In this document: positions 2 to 13,813 of the stretch, piece by piece
How the letters are laid out: each line of letters starts with the position of its first letter
How positions within the stretch are numbered: position 1 is the first letter of the stretch
Assembly: GCA_018658605.1 (NCBI GenBank)
Contig: JABHUV010000087.1
Coordinates: forward strand, 1 to 16,138
Source of the DNA: Planctomycetaceae bacterium
GTDB taxonomy: Bacteria > Planctomycetota > Planctomycetia > Pirellulales > Pirellulaceae
Direction: 5' to 3'
Length of the DNA stretch: 16,138 nucleotides
Notes under the pieces: generated by a model
The model's input: only the letters and a program-made list of their open reading frames with translations
What the model was told of the DNA's origin: nothing
Databases searched by the model: none
Position numbers and translations under genes: made by a program

Positions 2-397
2 AAAACGTCTGATGCCATCGTCGCTACGGTAGATTTCATGCCAACGTTTGCGAGTCTCGCCGGTTTTGATCTTCCCACTGACCGTAAGATCGATGGAGTT
101 GACCAAACTAGCTTATTACTTGGAACCAATAAACAGGGCAACAGAGATAATTACTACTATCAAGGCAATGGTGTGCGACAGGGGAAATGGAAATACTTGG
201 TAGCGGATCAAAAGGTTTATGGTTATGCGCGAGATATGGAACGTCCCGTCGTTGAAGAATTGTACAACCTTGATCGCGATATTGGGGAGACAAATAATCT
301 GGCTACTAGACACCCCGTGAAAGTGCAAATGTTGAAAGCGTTGATGAATTCAATCAAAGAGGACGCAACCATCCAACCAGTACAGAAGCTACGTTAA
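2..397 (+). CDS. Sulfatase, C-terminal fragment (5' end outside window)
   Basis: The frame is open from the left edge (Lys codon at 2-4) and ends with TAA at 395-397, giving 131 residues of a truncated protein. It begins with a stretch reading TVDFMPTFASLAG, which matches the segment after the sulfatase core that in this family reads roughly 'D-hydrophobic-PT-hydrophobic-LAG'. It continues with a Gly-Val-Asp-x-x-Ser-Leu segment, a GKWKYL strand, and the typical C-terminal block ELYNLDRDIGETNNLA (Glu-Leu-Tyr-Asn-Leu ... Glu-Thr-Asn-Asn-Leu). These are the usual C-terminal subdomain features of family S1 sulfatases. The catalytic Cys region lies outside the window, so activity cannot be judged. 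The ATG at 38 is internal and is not a start. The gene converges on the - strand gene ending at 412, leaving 14 bp between the stops. It is a separate gene from the three-domain sulfatase further right. Confidence 0.85.
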   Translation, partial: KTSDAIVATVDFMPTFASLAGFDLPTDRKIDGVDQTSLLLGTNKQGNRDNYYYQGNGVRQGKWKYLVADQKVYGYARDMERPVVEELYNLDRDIGETNNLATRHPVKVQMLKALMNSIKEDATIQPVQKLR

Positions 398-411
398 TAG
401 GCTATCTTAAA

Positions 412-1149
412 CTATAGAGTTTCGGAACTATTCTTGGTGTCGCCGTCTGGCTGCGGTGTTCGGTACGTCGATTTGTCGGAGTTTAGGGATAAAGCGGCGG
501 ATTTACACATGAGTGCCCCTAAGCGTAGTGCGTGGTTATTGGAAATAGATTGACTGAGTGAGGACAATACTTCTTTCAACACGAGGTTGAATTCCTCTCG
601 CTTGGGAGACACGCTGCGTTCGGATATTTGTTGAATTATCTGTAGAATTCGAGAACGTTTTTGAACGTTTACTGGCAGCAGAAGGCTAAATGAACCCTGT
701 GAATGCTCGCCAGAACCCCCAACATAAGTTGTAATCGAAAAGGATTGGTTGTCACTGGATTTCACCTCCAGGTTTACGTAGGCTGAAATGTCTTCGCCTG
801 ACTTGACCGGCCACTTGCAGGGATGGCAATCGGTGATGGTCAACACGACGGTTGTATCGTCCTTTAAATTTAGTGTTGCAACTCCGCTAAAGGGAAGAGG
901 GACAACTGATCCACCTTGGCACTCGCGCGTCGGGTCGCTTGCTTCATGTACCGGTCCTTCAACGAGCTCCAAGCCACGTTCCATTAGGCTTTGTTGGAGC
1001 GCTTTTGAGGCTATTGCATCAAGTTTGGATAAGTCGACCGAGGTATTAGGTTGCGAAAGGTCATATACGGTTCTTGCCCCAAGTATTGTAATTAGTACGA
1101 ACAGAGTGATCTTCAGGAGAAATCGGTTCGTAGGGGGAGGGAGCGTCAT
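412..1149 (-). CDS. Unrecognised membrane-anchored protein with CxxC
   Basis: 245 residues, family not recognised. An N-terminal hydrophobic segment (about residues 9-28) follows a Lys/Arg-poor start and looks like a signal anchor or uncleaved signal, with the remainder outside the cytoplasm. A central region (about 85-160) is rich in alternating beta-type residues and holds a CHPC motif (Cys108, Cys111). Further cysteines are at 77 and 215. The region from about 163 to 220 looks helical, and the tail is polar. The ATG at 1147-1149 is preceded on the coding strand by AGGA with 7 nt spacing, a reasonable ribosome binding site. Of the two long opposing frames here, this one is preferred because it has a plausible signal anchor and binding site; the + strand frame at 788-1261 has neither. 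It converges with the left-edge sulfatase and diverges from the propeller gene at 1423. A role in sulfoglycan metabolism would be guilt by association only. Confidence 0.6.
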   Translation of the reverse strand: MTLPPPTNRFLLKITLFVLITILGARTVYDLSQPNTSVDLSKLDAIASKALQQSLMERGLELVEGPVHEASDPTRECQGGSVVPLPFSGVATLNLKDDTTVVLTITDCHPCKWPVKSGEDISAYVNLEVKSSDNQSFSITTYVGGSGEHSQGSFSLLLPVNVQKRSRILQIIQQISERSVSPKREEFNLVLKEVLSSLSQSISNNHALRLGALMCKSAALSLNSDKSTYRTPQPDGDTKNSSETL

Positions 1150-1422
1150 ATTCTATTCCTGCGAGAAGTCAAAATCGAAATTGGTTGTTCACATGCCGAC
1201 AACGAGAAACCATTTACTATTCTATATTGCGTGTTCTCCCAATTGTAACCTATTGGCGTGACGCTCCTTGGTCACAAATTACTATACTTCTTTAGCTAGT
1301 GCGGTAAATCATCAAATAAGGAATGGAAGGTAGAGCGAAGCTTTCGCGCCGATTTATTCGATCAGAAGTGGTAGGCTACTATTAACACCTAATAATCGCA
1401 TACTTACATCAAGGCTCGTACG
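1150..1422. other. Divergent intergenic region
   Basis: This 273-bp stretch separates the divergent genes at 1149 (-) and 1423 (+), so it must carry promoters for both. Two short inverted repeats are visible: GTGAC at 1258-1262 with GTCAC at 1271-1275, and GCGAA at 1335-1339 with TTCGC at 1343-1347. A TATACT hexamer at 1283-1288 resembles a -10 box on +, but no good -35 partner lies at standard spacing. No small gene with a credible start was found. Confidence 0.35.
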
Positions 1423-3228
1423 ATGATTCGATTTCATATTATTACGCTAAGCGCCTTACTTATTTGCAGCTTAAACTCGGCAAACGGGGTCGACCAATAC
1501 ATGACGATTCGCGTTATTGACGCGGATACGGAGCGTGGTGTTCCGTTAGTTCAATTAACAACCGTCAATCATCGCAGTTTTATTACCGATAGTCAGGGTG
1601 TGATTGCCTTTGATGAGCCGGGATTGATGAATCGCCGTGTGTTTTTTCACGTATTCAGTCACGGTTATGAGTTCCCAAAAGACAAATTTGGTTATCGTGG
1701 TAGAGCGATTCAGGTCAGTGCTGGTGGCACGGTTACATTAGAACTACAGCGGATTAATATAGCTGAGCGGCTTTATCGGGTGACTGGCCAGGGGAAATAT
1801 CGCGGCAGTCGATTACTAGGGTTGGACCTCCCGGTACGCGAGGATTTGCCGGGAGGCGTGCTTGGCAGCGACAGCGTGCTAACGGAAACCATTGGCGACT
1901 CGCTCTATTGGTTTTGGGGGGACACCAATAGAGCGGAATATCCCTTAGGTAATTTCCATGTCCCCGGAGCACGTTCTAAGCTGCCCGGCAAGGGAGGTTT
2001 GGATCCCCATCTCGGCATTGATCTAGATTACTTTCTTAATGAAAAAGGTTTCGCGAAGGAAACTTGTAAAATGCCGGGCAATGGGCCAACTTGGTTGGAC
2101 TGCCTAATGAAAGTAGAGGAGGAGGGCAAACCGGATCGACTTTTGGGGGTGTACATGAAGGTAGAAGCTCCATTACACATTTATGAACGTGGAATTGTGG
2201 AATTCAATCTTGCCACGCAACTTTGGGAACACCGGATGACATTCCCAGATTCCCAAAAAGTGGTTCCTCGCGGGCACCCATTCAAACACCGCGAGAAGGA
2301 TGAATTGTTTTTTTACTTTGCGGGCGGCGTACCGAGGACACGCGTTCCGGCTACGGTTAAGGATATTTTGGATCCCACGCGTTACGAAGCCTATACTTGC
2401 CTGACTGAATCCAGTAAATCACTCCCGGGCGTCCGTCGTGACGGCAATAACGAGCTGTCGTTCAGATGGACGACGACTGGACCAATATTGAGTGTGAATC
2501 TTGCCAATAAACTACTCCAAGCGGGGAGGCTTTCTGAAAATGAAATACCTGGTTTAATCGACATTGAAACGGGCAAGCATATAATTCCCCACCATGGCAG
2601 CGTCTATTACAACGCATATCTAGGCAAGTACATCATGATCATTAGTCAGTCTATGGGCCGCAGCATGCTTGGTGAAGTTTGGTTTTCGGAGTCAGCAACC
2701 CCCTCCGGACCCTGGAAATACGCGCGTCGAATCGTCACGCACGACAATTATAGTTTTTATAATCCCAAGCAGCATCCAATGCTTGACCGTGACAATGGCC
2801 GCAGTATTTTTTTTGAAGGCACCTATACCACCACCTTTTCCGGCAATACCAACCCAACACCTGGCTACGATTACAACCAGATAATGTACAAACTGGATTT
2901 AGCGGACGTGAGGCTCAATCTTCCCGTCCCCGTTTATTCCGAGCAGTTAGAACCTGGCTTGAATCCGATCCAATCCGTGCAACTAACTCCGGCGGACAAG
3001 GCTCGGGCTCCTCTGTTTTACGCGCTAACTCGAGCGGGGGTTAAAACGCAAGAAATCAAAATTAGCGGAGGTTCTTTTTGGATCGCCAAAGCGCCTGGCC
3101 CCCATCTCCAACCCCTCGTGGAATGGACTAAAAGAGATCAAACTTCCATTTATCTGCCTCAGGGAATGACCGTGTCCGGAGGTTATCAGAAAAAGCAAGG
3201 AGCGGTTGGGTATGTTTGGAAGAGATAA
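1423..3228 (+). CDS. Secreted beta-propeller protein, glycan-active-like
   Basis: 601 residues. A clear Sec signal peptide (about 1-22, ending SANG) is followed by a transthyretin/carboxypeptidase-regulatory-like beta-sandwich (about 25-110; reads as an IRVIDADTERGVPL strand and an SFITDSQGVIAF segment, typical of that fold). From about 115 to 500 the pattern is that of a five-bladed beta-propeller of the glycoside-hydrolase or DUF4185 type: a first-blade LYWFWGDT motif (Asp167), a GHPF turn (about 284), a HHGSVYYNAYLGKYIMI segment (His390, His391) and FYNPKQHP with FFEGTYTT (about 445-469). The last 100 residues form a further beta-rich domain. The fold call is inference from motif shape. 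The catalytic residues of GH43 or GH32 cannot be assigned with certainty, so activity is unknown. A weak AAGG lies upstream of the ATG. It probably acts outside the cytoplasm on the same glycans as the neighbouring sulfatases. It converges on the three-domain sulfatase gene. Confidence 0.8.
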   Translation: MIRFHIITLSALLICSLNSANGVDQYMTIRVIDADTERGVPLVQLTTVNHRSFITDSQGVIAFDEPGLMNRRVFFHVFSHGYEFPKDKFGYRGRAIQVSAGGTVTLELQRINIAERLYRVTGQGKYRGSRLLGLDLPVREDLPGGVLGSDSVLTETIGDSLYWFWGDTNRAEYPLGNFHVPGARSKLPGKGGLDPHLGIDLDYFLNEKGFAKETCKMPGNGPTWLDCLMKVEEEGKPDRLLGVYMKVEAPLHIYERGIVEFNLATQLWEHRMTFPDSQKVVPRGHPFKHREKDELFFYFAGGVPRTRVPATVKDILDPTRYEAYTCLTESSKSLPGVRRDGNNELSFRWTTTGPILSVNLANKLLQAGRLSENEIPGLIDIETGKHIIPHHGSVYYNAYLGKYIMIISQSMGRSMLGEVWFSESATPSGPWKYARRIVTHDNYSFYNPKQHPMLDRDNGRSIFFEGTYTTTFSGNTNPTPGYDYNQIMYKLDLADVRLNLPVPVYSEQLEPGLNPIQSVQLTPADKARAPLFYALTRAGVKTQEIKISGGSFWIAKAPGPHLQPLVEWTKRDQTSIYLPQGMTVSGGYQKKQGAVGYVWKR

Positions 3229-3241
3229 ACAGAAGTTAATC

Positions 3242-3274
3242 AATGATTGGAATTTTCTTTTTCCGACAATCATT
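3242..3274. terminator. Inverted repeat between convergent genes, possible terminator
   Basis: AATGATTG at 3242-3249 is a perfect 8-bp inverse of CAATCATT at 3267-3274, with a 17-nt T-rich loop, in the 61 bp between the stops at 3228 (+) and 3290 (-). The position fits a bidirectional terminator. The stem is AT-rich and no T-run follows it on either strand, so this is weak. Confidence 0.25.
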
Positions 3275-3289
3275 TCCACGGTCGGTGGT

Positions 3290-6200
3290 TTATTCGAGAG
3301 GTAATTTTCGTGGCATAGCAGCCTTCGTCTCCAATAGCCACCTGCTCAGATCATCATTAAGACGTTGCGTAAGTTTGGGGCGCGAGACAGCCAAATTATT
3401 GGCTTCACTTATGTCCTTGGTGATATTGTAAAGTTCCAGGGAATTTGTTGCATAATGACGCACCAATTTGTAGTCTCCACTACGCACGGCACCTGCAAGC
3501 GAATTACTACGGTGCCATGCATAATTCGGGAAATGAAAGTATATGTTAGTCCTGTCAAGTTGTTTGTTGTGAAACAATGGTGCTAAGGATACCCCGTCAC
3601 AAATGGATTCTGCTTCTAAGTTGCAGACTTCAAGAATGGTTGGAAAGAAGTCCATGCTAATCACAGGAGTGTCATTGAGTTGGTTTGGTTTGATGACGTT
3701 GGGCCAGCGAATCATTAGGGGCACCCGAATGCCGCCTTCATAGATATGGCCTTTTGATTCTCGCAGTGGTCGGTTGTCGGACACGCCCGCGAATCCTCCG
3801 TTGTCTGAGGTAAAGATCACTAGCGTATTATCACTGAGCCCCTTCTTGTCCAGGTGAGCCATGATTTTTCCAAACGAAGCATCCAGCGCTTCAATCATGG
3901 CGCCGTAGCGAGTGTCATTGAGTCCTGGTCCGGATTTGGATTCATATTTCTTCAAAAGATGGTCTGGGGCCTCCATCGGCCAGTGAACGGAATAATTCCA
4001 GAGGCAAGTAAAAAACGGCGCGCCGTCTGCCTTATCAATAAATTGGCACACCTCGTCGGCTAAGCGATCTGGCAGGTATTCCCCTTCCTTGCGATCGGTA
4101 AGGTTGTGGATTCGATAGGGATCGAAAAAGGTCGGTGGACCCCCGTAAATACAGCCTCCAATGTTGACGTCAAATCCTTGGTTTTCGGGATAATACTTAA
4201 CGGCTCCCTGTCCGAGGGGGCCAACGCCGGTACCCGCAATATGCCATTTTCCGAAGAAGCCCGTAGCGTAGCCGACTCCTTGGAGCCGTTCGGCGATGGT
4301 TGTATAGGACGGATCGAGGTAATCAAACATTTCAGCGCCGGTATGTGAGGCGTCGGCGGGTGTAAATTGCGGACGGTCGGGAATGTGATTGGTAATTCTG
4401 AGCCGAGCCGGCGCCAAGCCAGTGATTAAAGCGGCGCGGGTCGGTGAGCAGACTGGAGCTGCGGCATAAGCGCTGGTGAAACGAATGCCTTCATTTGCGA
4501 AACGGTCCAGATGCGGGGTTTCGACTAGAGGGTTACCCTGACAAGCCAAATCCATCCAGGCCAAATCGTCCGCCATGACCAAAATGATATTTGGAGGTGA
4601 ACTTGACATGATTTGCTTGTCTTGTAATACGGGGTCGCGTTCCGGTGTATATGCTCTGTTGGTCGTTGGCAGTTGTGCCTTGATGTCTTTTAGGTACTGC
4701 TTAAGTTTAGTATTAAGCTGGGCTGCCTTTTCCGGATAGGTGTTCACCAGATTATTGGCCTCCCCTAGATCTTTGGAAAGATCGTACAATTGTAATTCAC
4801 CCGATTCCCAGAAGTAATGAAGTTTATAATCGCCGTCAACAATCGTCGAATCAGGTTTGCTTAGCTTTTGATGTTGATAGTGCGGCCAGTGGAAGTAAAG
4901 TTCATTGCGGGGTCGAATTACGCTGCCTGTTTGGTGCAACGCAGGTATCAGACTTCCACCCTCAACCCGCTCGTCTAGATTATGTATACCGAGGATGTCA
5001 CAGATGGTCGGTAAAATGTCGTAGCCGATGGCCTTCTGACGAGAAAGGGATCCAGCTGTAATTCCGGGACCAGAAATCATCAGGGGAACCCGCACGCCCG
5101 CTTCCCACAAGGTTGCCTTGCTGCCGCGTAGGGGCCCATTGATGTTCGCGGGATCCGTTGTTGGATACGTGCCATTGTCTGAGGTATAGATAATATAGGT
5201 GTTGTCAAGAATTCCTAGGTGTTCGACCGCGTCCAACAATTGACCGAGTGATGTGTCTAAATCTTCAATCATGCCCCCGTACTGAATGTTATTGTGACGT
5301 TTTCCCTCCTGGCGGGATTCAAGCCGGGCGATAGTATGCGGTTGGGACTGGTATCCCAAATGAGTTGCGTAGTGCGAAACCTGCAAATAGAAAGGATTGC
5401 CTCGGGAAACCTGTTTCTGCATCCAGTTCACCGACGAACGCGTAATGCTAAAAGCTCTTTTTGGATCGTCCGGCAGGTTGGACTTTAACCCCCCCTCTCG
5501 ATTACCGGTCGAACCGTCTCCGATATCAAAACCGTGCGCCAGCGGGCCTCCTCCATTGAGATGCCATTTACCAAAATGTGCAGCCATATATGCGGAGTTA
5601 TGTGCTTTGAGTCGCTCAGGAATTGTTACTGTAGCTGAGTCGAGTTGATTGACATGGGCTGGCGGGGTCAAACGATTGCCGATGTAGTATTTTCCCGTAT
5701 TACGACCGACGATATCACTGAAGTGCAGTGCCGCCGGACTGATGCCGGTAAGCAGTGCGGCACGGGATGGCGAACAGTTAGTATGCGCCGAATAGGCCTG
5801 AGTAAAACGCATGCCGGAAGCGGCGATACGTTGCATATTAGGGGTGTGAAAAAAGTCACTCTTAGATTGTTTGATTTGCGGATCATACGGGATCGATGTG
5901 GTTCCCCAGCCTTGGTCGTCTGATAGAATCACGATAAAATTGGGCGGATTTTTTGCGGAGGTGTTAGATTGATTGGCCTTAATTGCCGCCGGTTCAAGTG
6001 GATCTAACCGGACCCGAGTCACCTCTCCGGTGTAGCGAAATGGGTCATCGTAATTACCGACATTACTTTGATTGTCATCGTTAATACTCAGACCATCCTG
6101 TGGTTCGACGGGTATCAAACCATCCGCCTGACCCGTGGCTATGACCTCACCATTGATTTTCAACGACATCTTGGCGTCTTTGGCGAGAATCGCTTCGATA

Positions 6201-8047
6201 TCAAGGGGCTTTTTGTTTTTGATGGTCGCGGATGAGATCGATTTTAATTTGCCGTTGATGCGGACGCTAAACGTAAGCTGCGCTTGCTTAATATGCAGCG
6301 CAACGCCCTGTTGGCTACCGCCCAAGGCAAACAAGACCCCATCGCGTTGTCCTGATGACGCGGTACACGAGAGAGAAATCGCGCGGTTGGCGATTTTTAT
6401 GGTACCGGACTTGGGTGTAGTTTTAGAAGCGGTGGGCATCGTCTTAAACCAGTCATGCCAGCGATAGGAAAGCTCTTCGAGGCGGATGGATTGCTCGCTC
6501 GCCAGATTAGTCGTTTCCGCTGGGTCCTGTTGGATATTGAACAGCTCCCATGGCTGCCCAGCAAGTGCAGAGATTTTCCACTGCCGATATCTAGCGGCTC
6601 GACCGCCCATATGTTCAAAGTAAAGCATGCGATCGCTATCGACTTTATTTCGTTGTAATAATCCAACCAAACTATCACCGTCCATTCTGAACGAATCGCT
6701 CTGTCTCGCGCCAGCTAACTCCAAACAGGTGGGAGCAATATCCATGACGTGACCGATGTTAGTTGTGATTTTACCTGGATTCACATCCATTCCAGCGGGC
6801 CAGTGCACGATTAACGGGGTTCGACAACCACCTTCGTAACTTTCTTTTTTCCAGTATCGCAGAGGACTGTTGGTTGCATTTGCCCAAGCGGGCCCGAGTC
6901 CGGTATAGCTTTCCGCGGCTCCGAGTTTACTGCGATGTTGCGGTAGTTTAAGTTCACGTTCGCGATGGGCAATTTTGCCGGTGCGTGTTTGTCCGTTTCG
7001 ATCATAGCCGGCATAACCGGGGATTTCCGGCGACGCGCCGTTGTCAGAGAGAAAGAAAATAACAGTGTTTTCTAGTTCGCCGGTTTCCTTTAACGCCCCG
7101 ATAATACGTCCAATTCCCTGATCGACACTGTCGATCATAGCGGCGTGCACTTCCATCTTACCGGATTGATAAGACTTCTCCGATACGGTGAGTTCATCCC
7201 ATGAGTTCCCACGGTCGATTACCCCGTCTATGGGGGTGTTCTGCGGGAACAACTTCATGTCTCTTTGTTGCTTAAAACGGTTGGTCTTCAATTCATCCCA
7301 ACCCCCATTGTATTTTCCCTGGTATTTTTTTATTACGCCAGGCTTGGCATGTAGCGGCCAGTGCGGTGCCGTATAGGCAACGTAGAGAAAAAAAGGTTCT
7401 TCATCTTTTTCGTCAAAGGAATGAATGTAGTTAACCGAATAATCCGTAATCGAATCGGTCAAATAGAAATCGTTCGGAACGTTTTCAACAGGGGTGTCGT
7501 CGTGAACCAAACTGAAAGGATCGAAATAGTCGACGACGCCCCAGATCACTCCGTAGTAATGGTCAAATCCGCGTTTGCGGGGATAAGAAGCAGGATCGGC
7601 GAAGGGGATGTCCAAATCTAGTTGGTGATCCATCCAGCGAATACGTTGTTGATCGTCATTGGTAGACGTCAATTCGGAGAGGTGCCATTTTCCGGTCATC
7701 CCCGTTTGGTACCCAGCGGGCTTGAGCAGTTCGGCCAAGGTGGGCGCGGTAACAGCCAGCGTTTTCCCGTTACGTGCAAGACCCACTCGATGTGGATAGG
7801 AGCCGGTAAGCAGGCTGGCGCGAGTTGGGCAGCAGCGGGCACAGTTATAGAACTGTGTGAAACGTAGGCCTCCGTCTGCCAGTCTATTCAGATTGGGCGT
7901 CTCAATTTCACCCCCAAAGCACATAGGATCTGAATAACCCATATCGTCAACCATGATGACTAAAAAATTGGGTTTATCGGCTGAGAGTAACGTGACTGAG
8001 TACAGCAGGGGGATTAAGAAACAACAGAGTTTTACTAGGTTTCGCAT
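3290..8047 (-). CDS. Secreted tri-sulfatase: three tandem sulfatase domains with lectin-like insert
   Basis: One uninterrupted frame of 1585 residues from the ATG at 8047, about three times the usual sulfatase length. Numbering from that ATG: signal peptide 1 to about 23; sulfatase 1 (25-538) with Asp34/Asp35, nucleophile signature CCPTR at Cys72, GKWH 119-122 and SDNG 334-337; a beta-sandwich, lectin/LamG-like domain (about 547-683); sulfatase 2 (699-1136) with Asp710/711, CSPSR at Cys758, GKWH 826-829 and SDNG 956-959; sulfatase 3 (1150-1581) with Asp1160/1161, CSPTR at Cys1200, GKWH 1266-1269 and SDNG 1414-1417. All three sites therefore keep the Cys that becomes formylglycine plus metal-binding Asp/Asn and Lys/His residues. 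Domains 2 and 3 resemble each other more (LRGSK...EAGVRVPLMI against LRESK...EGGIRVPLMI) than domain 1. Neither internal junction has a hydrophobic signal sequence, which argues for a real fusion. A TTG at 8074 is an alternative start, but the ATG sits directly before the signal peptide and fits the promoter at 8087-8115. The iduronate-sulfatase-like gene lies upstream on the same strand. The substrate is unknown. Confidence 0.92.
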   Translation of the reverse strand: MRNLVKLCCFLIPLLYSVTLLSADKPNFLVIMVDDMGYSDPMCFGGEIETPNLNRLADGGLRFTQFYNCARCCPTRASLLTGSYPHRVGLARNGKTLAVTAPTLAELLKPAGYQTGMTGKWHLSELTSTNDDQQRIRWMDHQLDLDIPFADPASYPRKRGFDHYYGVIWGVVDYFDPFSLVHDDTPVENVPNDFYLTDSITDYSVNYIHSFDEKDEEPFFLYVAYTAPHWPLHAKPGVIKKYQGKYNGGWDELKTNRFKQQRDMKLFPQNTPIDGVIDRGNSWDELTVSEKSYQSGKMEVHAAMIDSVDQGIGRIIGALKETGELENTVIFFLSDNGASPEIPGYAGYDRNGQTRTGKIAHRERELKLPQHRSKLGAAESYTGLGPAWANATNSPLRYWKKESYEGGCRTPLIVHWPAGMDVNPGKITTNIGHVMDIAPTCLELAGARQSDSFRMDGDSLVGLLQRNKVDSDRMLYFEHMGGRAARYRQWKISALAGQPWELFNIQQDPAETTNLASEQSIRLEELSYRWHDWFKTMPTASKTTPKSGTIKIANRAISLSCTASSGQRDGVLFALGGSQQGVALHIKQAQLTFSVRINGKLKSISSATIKNKKPLDIEAILAKDAKMSLKINGEVIATGQADGLIPVEPQDGLSINDDNQSNVGNYDDPFRYTGEVTRVRLDPLEPAAIKANQSNTSAKNPPNFIVILSDDQGWGTTSIPYDPQIKQSKSDFFHTPNMQRIAASGMRFTQAYSAHTNCSPSRAALLTGISPAALHFSDIVGRNTGKYYIGNRLTPPAHVNQLDSATVTIPERLKAHNSAYMAAHFGKWHLNGGGPLAHGFDIGDGSTGNREGGLKSNLPDDPKRAFSITRSSVNWMQKQVSRGNPFYLQVSHYATHLGYQSQPHTIARLESRQEGKRHNNIQYGGMIEDLDTSLGQLLDAVEHLGILDNTYIIYTSDNGTYPTTDPANINGPLRGSKATLWEAGVRVPLMISGPGITAGSLSRQKAIGYDILPTICDILGIHNLDERVEGGSLIPALHQTGSVIRPRNELYFHWPHYQHQKLSKPDSTIVDGDYKLHYFWESGELQLYDLSKDLGEANNLVNTYPEKAAQLNTKLKQYLKDIKAQLPTTNRAYTPERDPVLQDKQIMSSSPPNIILVMADDLAWMDLACQGNPLVETPHLDRFANEGIRFTSAYAAAPVCSPTRAALITGLAPARLRITNHIPDRPQFTPADASHTGAEMFDYLDPSYTTIAERLQGVGYATGFFGKWHIAGTGVGPLGQGAVKYYPENQGFDVNIGGCIYGGPPTFFDPYRIHNLTDRKEGEYLPDRLADEVCQFIDKADGAPFFTCLWNYSVHWPMEAPDHLLKKYESKSGPGLNDTRYGAMIEALDASFGKIMAHLDKKGLSDNTLVIFTSDNGGFAGVSDNRPLRESKGHIYEGGIRVPLMIRWPNVIKPNQLNDTPVISMDFFPTILEVCNLEAESICDGVSLAPLFHNKQLDRTNIYFHFPNYAWHRSNSLAGAVRSGDYKLVRHYATNSLELYNITKDISEANNLAVSRPKLTQRLNDDLSRWLLETKAAMPRKLPLE

Positions 8048-8208
8048 AAGTTGCCAAGTATTTGTGGAGAGCAAAGGTAAAGCTTCATTATACGTCGACG
8101 GCCGCGTTTCGTCTGGTCATTTTGGGCGCCGATATTTCGGATGTTGAGTTGATTGTTTTTAGATAAGGCCGATGGCAACGTCACTAGGAATTGTGGGTTT
8201 GGAAAGCG
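8048..8208. other. Intergenic gap upstream of the tri-sulfatase gene
   Basis: This 161-bp gap lies between the stop of the iduronate-sulfatase-like gene (8209) and the ATG of the tri-sulfatase gene (8047), both on the - strand. It carries a promoter-like site, reported separately. No convincing terminator for the upstream gene was found, so read-through plus an internal promoter is possible. Confidence 0.4.
8087..8115 (-). promoter_or_regulatory. Sigma70-like promoter candidate for the tri-sulfatase gene
   Basis: On the - strand a perfect TATAAT (8092-8087) is preceded by 17 nt and then CAGACG (8115-8110), a weak 3-of-6 match to TTGACA. Transcription would begin near 8080. That leaves about 5 nt before the TTG at 8074 but about 32 nt before the ATG at 8047, which supports the ATG as the start. 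Sigma70 consensus is an assumption for this organism. Confidence 0.4.
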
Positions 8209-12039: not shown

Positions 12040-13590
12040 TTAATAACCAGTGCCGACGGCGGGAAGATGATCTACCATCTTGGCGCCCGTACGACGAAGC
12101 TCGGCGATCGTGGCCGCACGCAAGCGAAGAGTTAAAGATCGATATTGTTTGTAGAATGCTAAGTTGTGCAACTCGTCCGGATCGCGTTTTAGATCGTATA
12201 ACTCTTCCGGTTCATTCGCCACAAGTGTACGAATGTACTTGTAATTTCCATCTCGCAGGGAGACCCACCAAGGCACGCCATTAAGATCCCGAATCTCCGG
12301 ATCGGAGGGAATGGTATCGGTATCTCTCCCATAGCTGCGCCCAGTAAGGGTTTGTAACACAGGGTGATTCCATTTTGTCTTTGGGTTGCTCAGAAGCGGT
12401 GAAATATCGTGCCCATGCATTTTCCAAGGTAGATTAATACCAGCAAAACTGAAAAAGGTTGGAGCGATATCGACACCGGCCACTGGCGTTTTACAGACAG
12501 ACTTTTTGGGTATTCGGCCGGGCATACTGACAATCATCGGTGACCGAGTTGTGGCATCGTAGGGCGCTAGTTTCATACGAAAACCATGTTGCCCCCATGC
12601 AAATCCTTGATCCGAGGTGAACACAACAAGTGTATTTTCACGTTGGCCAGAGGCGTCGAGTGCTGCCATTATACGACCGACCCCCTCGTCGATTGCAATG
12701 ACGCCCTGATGATATTGGCGCACCCAATCGCTAAGGTCGTTACCGTGGATGCCTTTCGTATCAACGGTACGTGCTTGAAAACCGTTTCCCGCCATTACGG
12801 GTTGCCCATCCTCGCCCTTTTCCCACTGATCAATTTTTTGCATCCAGTCTGGTTTACCGGGACGGGGGGGGTAGATGTCCTGCGGCGTGGGGATTTGAAC
12901 ATTTGGATAGTCTTGTTGATGGCGCTCGGCGGGTGGAAAAGGTCCATGGACCGCTCCAAAGCAAACCCACAAATACCAAGGTTTAGCAGGATCTCGATGA
13001 TCGCCGTCAATAAAGTCGATTGCCCAGTCTGTGTAGTTGTCTGTGGAATAGCCATTCACATGTTTACCGTCTGCACCATCAACCTGTATTAATTGATTGT
13101 CATAATAGTTGCCAGCGTTTTCTGGATAAGCCGGACGATTCCACACTTTCTGGTGATCCCAGTCGCGACCAAACCCGTTATCCGTCCCAGTGTGCCATTT
13201 ACCGATTTGTGCCGTCACATATCCGTGACTGCGAAACACACTCGGCCAAAAAGGACACTGTTGAGGGTCATATTCGCTGCCGGGATATTGTCCCTCCATT
13301 CTCATAGATTGGACGCCGTATTGATGATGTCCTGTAAGCATTGCTGCTCGACTCGGCATACACCAAGTTCCAATATACGCTGCGTCAAAACGCATTCCTT
13401 GTTTGGCAAGTTGGTCAATATGAGGAGTGCGTACAAAATCATAGCTATCCTTATAGCAACCAACCGTACGATAGGATTGATCATCTGTATAAATAAACAG
13501 AATATTGGGTGGGTTGGAGTCATTCTCGGCAGCAGAAATGGGTTCGGCAAAGGCCATGCAACTTAAAATAATAAACAATATATATTTCAT
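12040..13590 (-). CDS. Secreted sulfatase (CMPSR type)
   Basis: 516 residues from the ATG at 13590, which directly precedes a signal peptide (1 to about 21, KYILFIILSCMAFAEPISA). The frame stays open to 13719, but the extra 43 residues would bury the signal peptide, so the upstream start is rejected. Family S1 features: Asp36/Asp37 in FIYTDDQSY, formylglycine signature CMPSRAAMLTG with nucleophile Cys77, GKWH 130-133, SDQG 326-329 (Asn of the usual SDNG replaced by Gln), GHDI near 393 and a complete ELYDLKRDPDELHNLA end. The Asn-to-Gln change is at a metal-coordinating position but is seen in many sulfatases, so activity is still expected. The substrate subfamily was not identified. It probably forms a two-gene unit with PQQ-like propeller 1 (18 bp downstream). 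Confidence 0.9.
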   Translation of the reverse strand: MKYILFIILSCMAFAEPISAAENDSNPPNILFIYTDDQSYRTVGCYKDSYDFVRTPHIDQLAKQGMRFDAAYIGTWCMPSRAAMLTGHHQYGVQSMRMEGQYPGSEYDPQQCPFWPSVFRSHGYVTAQIGKWHTGTDNGFGRDWDHQKVWNRPAYPENAGNYYDNQLIQVDGADGKHVNGYSTDNYTDWAIDFIDGDHRDPAKPWYLWVCFGAVHGPFPPAERHQQDYPNVQIPTPQDIYPPRPGKPDWMQKIDQWEKGEDGQPVMAGNGFQARTVDTKGIHGNDLSDWVRQYHQGVIAIDEGVGRIMAALDASGQRENTLVVFTSDQGFAWGQHGFRMKLAPYDATTRSPMIVSMPGRIPKKSVCKTPVAGVDIAPTFFSFAGINLPWKMHGHDISPLLSNPKTKWNHPVLQTLTGRSYGRDTDTIPSDPEIRDLNGVPWWVSLRDGNYKYIRTLVANEPEELYDLKRDPDELHNLAFYKQYRSLTLRLRAATIAELRRTGAKMVDHLPAVGTGY

Positions 13591-13642
13591 TATTAGGTTT
13601 CTCAATTTATAAGTGGCGTTTATAGCGAAGGAGGTTAGTCCC

Positions 13643-13813
13643 GTGTTTATTGTATATGATTTACACCGTTTCAGTATGATAGCCAATCCAGCTATCTTCG
13701 CGATAGCGTACGTTACCAATCTAAATAACCCATGTAAAGGGTTTGATGCCTCCAGGCCGATTTGTTTTATTGGCGGCCTGCGTACTGGGCTGCGTGAGAA
13801 GTTGTTGCGATAG
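13643..13813 (+). CDS. Possible small protein, 56 residues, strong ribosome binding site
   Basis: A GTG at 13643 is preceded by AAGGAGGT (13628-13635), an 8-base match to the anti-Shine-Dalgarno sequence, with an ideal 7-nt spacer; it is the best ribosome binding site seen in the window. The frame ends with TAG at 13811-13813. The product is unrecognised: a mildly hydrophobic first half (segment reading SMIANPAIFAIAYV) and a basic C-terminus (GLRTGLREKLLR). A GTG at 13613 in the same frame would add 10 residues but sits upstream of the binding site. An 8-base match is expected about once per 30 kb of both strands by chance, so this may be fortuitous. It also lies opposite the upstream region of the sulfatase gene. 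Confidence 0.3.
   Translation: MFIVYDLHRFSMIANPAIFAIAYVTNLNNPCKGFDASRPICFIGGLRTGLREKLLR

Follow-up and report, generated by a model that had tools for sequence, protein, structure and literature searches.

Sulfation is a major obstacle to the degradation of polysaccharides from marine algae. To our knowledge, the substrates of most sulfatases are unknown.

Fusions of two sulfatases are known in Planctomycetes. As described in the accessible part of Kim et al. 2016 (PMC4807772), the Porphyra-associated Planctomycetes P1 and P2 possess a gene with two sulfatase domains, interpreted there as a fusion of unrelated adjacent sulfatase genes, and sulfatase gene neighbours show high turnover. The SulfAtlas paper (PMC5066984), in the sections available, splits proteins with several FGly-sulfatase modules for classification. 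Multi-modular planctomycetotal CAZymes are the subject of PMC11131199, the available portion of which names no sulfatase fusion. Among the matches listed in a search of titles and abstract openings, no paper on a triple sulfatase was found. The gene described here encodes such a chain. It is one case of a wider class and extends the known habit of the group.

One frame with three sulfatase domains

The window is the whole stretch of DNA that was analysed, 16,138 nucleotides long. Its minus strand holds, from 8047 to 3290, one unbroken frame of 1585 residues that begins with ATG at 8047 and stops at 3290-3292 (Table 1). A TTG upstream at 8074 is a possible alternative start that would add 9 codons. 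Pfam reports three PF00884 (Sulfatase) stretches in the protein (E 2.4e-157), which bears out the claim of a sequence-only reading that one 1585-residue frame contains three full S1 sulfatase domains, here D1, D2, and D3. Strongly hydrophobic 19-residue segments are confined to the N-terminus (residues 3-23), and beyond residue 30 the highest 19-residue hydropathy is 1.22. The proposals of a single signal peptide and of linkers free of hydrophobic segments are both upheld by this profile, the one hydrophobic stretch being signal-like.

Table 1. Coordinates of the fused gene, its predicted parts, and two neighbouring sulfatase genes in the window
Feature	Position	Strand	Remark
Whole gene, 1585 aa: signal-like N-terminus, D1, X, D2, linker, D3	3290..8047	-	
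Signal-peptide-like N-terminus, residues 1-23	7979..8047	-	hydropathy maximum at residues 3-23
D1, S1_4-like sulfatase, residues 24-540	6428..7978	-	
Formylglycine Cys72 (CCPTR), D1	7832..7834	-	column invariant in 36-row alignment
X, all-beta module, residues 555-684, possibly laminin-G/ConA-like	5996..6385	-	
D2, S1_16-like sulfatase, residues 702-1137	4637..5944	-	
Formylglycine Cys758 (CSPSR), D2	5774..5776	-	
D2-D3 linker, fusion junction, residues 1138-1150	4598..4636	-	
D3, S1_16-like sulfatase, residues 1151-1585	3293..4597	-	
Formylglycine Cys1200 (CSPTR), D3	4448..4450	-	
Single-domain sulfatase, 482 aa	8209..9657	-	482-aa sulfatase at same place in L001, L002
Single-domain sulfatase, 559 aa, TTG start	12040..13719	-	similar place in L001, L002

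Each domain has its own Cys-x-Pro-x-Arg motif, Asp-Asp pair, GKWH, and SDNG, as had been read from the sequence. The formylglycine motifs are CCPTR at residue 72, CSPSR at 758, and CSPTR at 1200, GKWH occurs at 119, 826, and 1266, and SDNG at 334, 956, and 1414. D1 was compared with the P. aeruginosa arylsulfatase AtsA, using its metal- and sulfate-binding residues D13, D14, R55, K113, H115, H211, D317, N318, and K375 or their equivalents as reference. Identity is observed at 10 of the 11 positions checked, including D34, D35, R76, K120, H122, H229, D335, N336, and K400 of D1; the eleventh is the active-site residue, Cys72 in D1. The equivalents of the catalytic and metal residues DD, H125, H201, DN, and K287 kept in D2 are D710, D711, H829, H896, D957, N958, and K977, and those kept in D3 are D1160, D1161, H1269, H1355, D1415, N1416, and K1432. 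The Arg of CxPxR and the Lys of GKWH are also present in both. At position -1 of the formylglycine motif, D1 (Arg) and D2 (Asn) deviate from the PROSITE pattern, and the solved D1-like sulfatase 7all shares RCCP with D1. Judged by alignment, each of the three domains thus has an S1 formylglycine motif and the predicted metal/sulfate-binding residues.

D1 ends near residue 540 and D2 starts near 702. The linkers had been put at about 15 residues, which is correct for D2-D3 (~13-15 residues, ~1138-1150) but not for D1-D2, where the ~160 residues in between contain module X. An AlphaFold2 model of D1 and the following region (36 rows, mean pLDDT 83.9, pTM 0.75) predicts X to be all-beta, with strands at 557-683. 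Laminin_G_2 falls below the Pfam cut-off in all four X modules scanned (16.6-19.0 bits vs 22.9, E 0.002-0.012). A structural search listed sulfatases only and thereby barely probed the fold of X. A laminin-G/concanavalin-like fold is a likely candidate for X.

The C-terminal piece of another sulfatase runs off the left end of the window (2-397, plus strand) and brings the sulfatase genes within 16 kb to four. The fused gene is followed downstream by one for a secreted-looking protein of 601-602 aa, located at 1423-3228 (+) in the window, 18472-20280 (-) in L002, and 1119-2927 (-) in L009. Pfam finds nothing in its copies from the window and from L002, and NCBIfam nothing in the window copy.

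Conservation and probable stepwise assembly of the chain

Homologues were sought among about 5.8 billion proteins, with candidates taken only at 0.55-1.75 times the query length. Six homologues of equal length and domain order, P0002-P0007, are among the matches listed. They have 1584-1585 aa, are 81-85% identical over 99-100% of the query, and all six have the order D1-X-D2-D3. Their contigs range from 11 to 353 kb, and each protein has a start Met and a hydrophobic N-terminus as in the window protein. P0003 is identical to the protein of locus L002, from SI074_bin7, a Planctomycetaceae MAG in which the gene is complete. Between the window and L002, dN/dS (NG86) is 0.096 for D1, 0.216 for X, 0.072 for D2, and 0.062 for D3. 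All four modules are under purifying selection, which is weakest on X. Against stand-alone D3 genes dS is saturated, hence no dN/dS ratio is given.

A joining of adjacent genes by faulty assembly or gene prediction is extremely improbable. The gene of the MAG UWMA-0045 is divided between two contigs, L001 and L009, which speaks for such an error, but the frame has no internal stop, purifying selection acts throughout it, L002 has the gene whole, and six further full-length proteins lie on different contigs. An assembly artefact was rejected on these grounds. The triple fusion is real and conserved, as far as the seven distinct fused sequences indicate. The parts are not always three separate genes in other genomes, since the four split genomes (G003, G004, G006, and G007) have two.

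Cleavage of the exported chain on either side of X and in the D2-D3 linker, releasing separate sulfatases, is quite unlikely. Low-confidence and perhaps flexible stretches of the model flank X (541-549 and 686-700), and the sequence of the D2-D3 linker varies among fused homologues, both of which would suit a cleaved precursor; the constant homologue length of 1584-1585 aa weighs weakly against it. The Met just ahead of D3 was rejected as an internal start of translation, as P0004, P0005, and P0006 lack it among the seven fused proteins. The spatial arrangement of D2 and D3 was not taken from AlphaFold2 because the model was too poor (17 rows, pTM 0.49).

Relatives of the parts exist as separate proteins. 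D1-X alone is represented by P0244 (699 aa, 56% over 96%) and P0245 (683 aa, 54% over 97%), and D2 alone by P0122 (475 aa, 67% over 100%). D3 alone occurs as genes of 461-472 aa, and all five inspected (L008, L083, L084, L085, and L089) have a signal-like N-terminus, located where the fused chain has the D2-D3 linker. D2 and D3 are 32% identical, vs 23% for D1-D2 and 26% for D1-D3, in agreement with the suggestion that D2 and D3 are related and D1 belongs to another subgroup. In a tree with long branches, where deeper joins are unsafe, D2 and D3 each cluster with stand-alone proteins and not together. Tandem duplication of one sulfatase was rejected, as each domain is closer to stand-alone relatives than to the other two. 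By these comparisons, one frame contains sulfatase domains of different origin, with separate stand-alone relatives for all three.

Seven MAGs that hold L001-L007 were compared (G001-G007). The fused form is found in two of them, G001 (in pieces) and G002. Four others (G003, G004, G006, and G007) encode D1-X-D2 as one gene (67-68% identity) and D3 at a separate place (80-82%). G005, a small assembly of 2.9 Mb, has D1-X-D2 and no close D3 among the matches listed. The match of G007 contains three reported stops and that of G004 contains one. These stops probably lie past the end of D1-X-D2, because D1-X-D2 by itself forms open frames, of 1144 and 1145 aa, in the two loci.

In the D1-X-D2 tree, the divergent unfused proteins P0010-P0013 join the close unfused P0008, and the fused rows come next. 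P0008, whose end is known from the protein only, stops at residue 1143 with a C-terminus resembling that of P0010-P0013. A root placed among the unfused rows makes the fused rows contiguous. As drawn, the root depends on a sole outgroup, P0014, and places the unfused rows beside the fused P0007. Because the P0014 branch is very long, 4 of the 11 inner forks are open, and this root leaves fused and unfused rows unseparated, a single fusion is something that we infer and do not read from the tree. The simplest history would be stepwise growth, where D1-X and D2 were joined first and D3 was then added, most simply once. This polarity is suggested by parsimony and the known split state, not by strong rooting. 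Alternatively, secondary splitting with loss of D3 may have occurred in P0008, or the fusion may have involved several events.

The neighbouring gene points to the site of the last step. An NHL-propeller gene starts 3-9 bases past the stand-alone D3 in all five loci (L008, L083, L084, L085, and L089), and in L002 it starts 3 bases after the fused gene. Since the same gene follows both forms, the fusion site is placed at the native locus of D3. The NHL-propeller gene has no tblastn match at E<=1e-5 in the window, where it is missing from 3229-3289, or in L009. Part of the fused lineage has therefore lost or relocated it.

Family assignment and probable substrate

The best solved relatives of D1 are 7all, which we take to be BT4683 (304 bits), and 1hdh (256 bits), vs 181 bits for the S1_16 enzyme 9fo1. 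Table 1 of PMC5066984, in the portion available, assigns 1hdh (P. aeruginosa AtsA) to S1_4, a family that also holds aryl sulfatases. D1 appears to be S1_4-like. For both D2 and D3, the top two solved matches are 9fo1 and 6ust, with 9fo1 scoring 259 bits against D2 and 373 bits against D3. D2 and D3 are predicted to be S1_16-like.

9fo1 is AMOR_S1_16A, described in the available part of PMC11760155 as an exo-acting kappa-carrageenan 4-O-sulfatase. According to the same part, Trp79 and His149 are conserved in the four solved S1_16 enzymes compared, the pocket Trp blocks the non-reducing side in 9fo1, and S1_16 also includes a 6S-GalNAc sulfatase. Mutating the pocket Trp abolishes activity in B. 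theta S1_16 enzymes, and just 37% of S1_16 sequences keep it, in the published passages at hand. By pairwise alignment, Trp79 is replaced by Ile779 in D2 and His1221 in D3, and His149 by Asn849 in D2 and Gly1303 in D3. Because Trp79 and His149 are missing, the two domains are called S1_16-like and not S1_16 4S-Gal sulfatases. A carry-over of 4-O-galactose specificity was rejected, since the pocket residues differ from those of the characterised enzymes. The two domains may therefore take sulfates at different positions, on different sugars, or on internal residues.

These divergent pockets would also fit a chain in which one of the three domains is a pseudo-enzyme with a binding or structural role. 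This is very unlikely, given that D1, D2, and D3 all possess the catalytic and metal residues examined and that dN/dS is low. The preferred reading is that all three domains are catalytic.

Glycoside hydrolase accessions occur in one chain with relatives of D1, X, or D2, namely PF04616 in P0015, P0017, P0025, P0026, P0043, and P0046, and PF02836/02837 in P0042, P0048, P0049, and P0091. We take PF04616 to be GH43 and PF02836/02837 to be GH2. In P0015 (2107 aa), P0017 (1516 aa), P0025, and P0026, D1-, X-, and D2-like modules are recombined with the PF04616 domain. Such combinations suggest that D1, X, and D2 have been shuffled as units.

The window also encodes PQQ-repeat proteins and an alpha/beta hydrolase (Pfam). 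No glycoside hydrolase domain was found by Pfam in the eight window frames scanned, so the context leaves the substrate unfixed. For characterised relatives in S1_4 and S1_16, the published excerpts available describe activity on Gal-3S, on Gal/GalNAc-4S, and on galactose-4S of kappa-carrageenan. A galactose-rich sulfated algal glycan would fit best as the substrate, a proposal held with rather less than even confidence.

Proposed function and comparison with known systems

The protein is probably a secreted triple sulfatase of marine Planctomycetota that removes different sulfates from one complex algal glycan. D1-X would have been joined to D2, and D3, added later, would have lost its signal peptide. 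The formylglycine-generating enzyme (FGE) would convert Cys72, Cys758, and Cys1200 before the respective domains fold, and the chain would be exported once, probably via Sec. Module X may hold the chain on the glycan while the three active sites remove different sulfates from the same complex sulfated polysaccharide. The fusion would fix a 1:1:1 stoichiometry and co-localise the steps. The idea that several distinct sulfate positions are targeted is held plausible, as D1 is predicted to be of another subgroup than D2 and D3.

Three formylglycine sites on one chain had been thought unusually demanding for the maturation enzyme. This expectation was not sustained. All six related genomes searched have 4-15 FGE-domain (PF03781) matches each, together with 84 to at least 118 sulfatase-domain matches per genome, so that three sites in the same protein add little. 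A burden on maturation is unlikely.

The domains could also be three sulfatases with unrelated substrates that share a promoter and a signal peptide by neutral or regulatory accident and do not cooperate on a glycan. Each of the six genomes has a very large number of sulfatases, their gene neighbours turn over fast (Kim et al. 2016, PMC4807772, in the part available), and many sulfatase combinations occur within single chains. An accident is nonetheless unlikely, since three active sites and their order are preserved at 81-85% identity and both D1-X-D2 and D3 are kept as separate genes in four of the seven MAGs. Among 119 genomes of the family of G002 (best four candidates per genome), four match at E<=1e-200, three with both parts and one (G107) with D3 alone (80%), and 115 have neither; shared ancestry weakens this point against an accident. 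Six matches are found in 246 genomes of the order, and in three of the six the match is confined to D1 relatives at 53-54% (few candidates per genome). Cooperation on one glycan remains the preferred reading.

A motif census covered 121 long proteins, made up of the query and the best 120 matches listed under the length filter (0.55-1.75 times the query length). Formylglycine motifs number three or four in 52 of them and two in 36, 29 have one and 4 have none, and a looser pattern gives three or more in 54 of the 121. The figure of 52 in 121 is no estimate of frequency, because the length filter and the selection of listed matches favour multi-domain proteins. Seven of the 52 have the present architecture, 36 map with a D1-like domain ahead of two D3-like ones, and the order differs in nine, of which seven show four or five mapped domains. 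An esterase accession is present in 26 of the 52.

The second triple architecture, seen from P0047 on, mostly has the motifs CWP[TS]R, CSASR, and C[AS]PTR and often carries an alpha/beta-hydrolase esterase accession (PF07859/PF20434). P0021 (2487 aa), P0022 (2396 aa), P0027 (2390 aa), and P0030 (2503 aa) contain about five sulfatase domains each but four motifs, which leaves at least one domain per chain without a recognised motif. No paper on sulfatase chains of four motifs and five domains was found. Chain A of PDB 9s8x ('Sulfatase', 1263 aa) is more than twice the usual length, and its match to the sulfatases here begins near residue 480. It may be a multi-domain sulfatase, and a literature search found no paper naming it.

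As a speculative and rather doubtful generalisation, marine Planctomycetota might build 'polysulfatases', secreted chains of 3-5 different sulfatases that arose by repeated, independent assembly and act in concert to desulfate a single complex glycan. In the present lineage, the split, two-part, and three-part stages form a clean series for testing what is gained by fusion. Across the fusion boundary, split relatives share 67-68% identity in D1-X-D2 and 80-82% in D3 with the fused form, which permits the effect of joining sulfatases to be tested directly. The conserved fusion predicts a shared substrate for D1, D2, and D3 and so provides a handle on specificity.

The single-domain enzymes AtsA (1hdh) and 7all match D1 over its length, and their catalytic residues are kept in D1, but D1 carries X and is fused. 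AMOR_S1_16A (9fo1; PMC11760155, in part) is the best solved relative of D2 and D3 by sequence. It has the pocket residues Trp79 and His149, whereas D2 has Ile and Asn and D3 has His and Gly. The sulfatase-glycosidase fusions of Planctomycetes and Kiritimatiellales, as described in the available parts of PMC4807772 and PMC6388578, are also multi-enzyme chains for sulfated polysaccharides. The partners in those fusions are mostly glycosidases or other domains, whereas here all three catalytic modules are sulfatases. The closest known case is in the same phylum, the two-sulfatase genes of P1 and P2 (PMC4807772, in part), which likewise have sulfatase domains of different origin in one frame. They contain two domains where the present chain has three, and they are likened to D1-X-D2 by description only.
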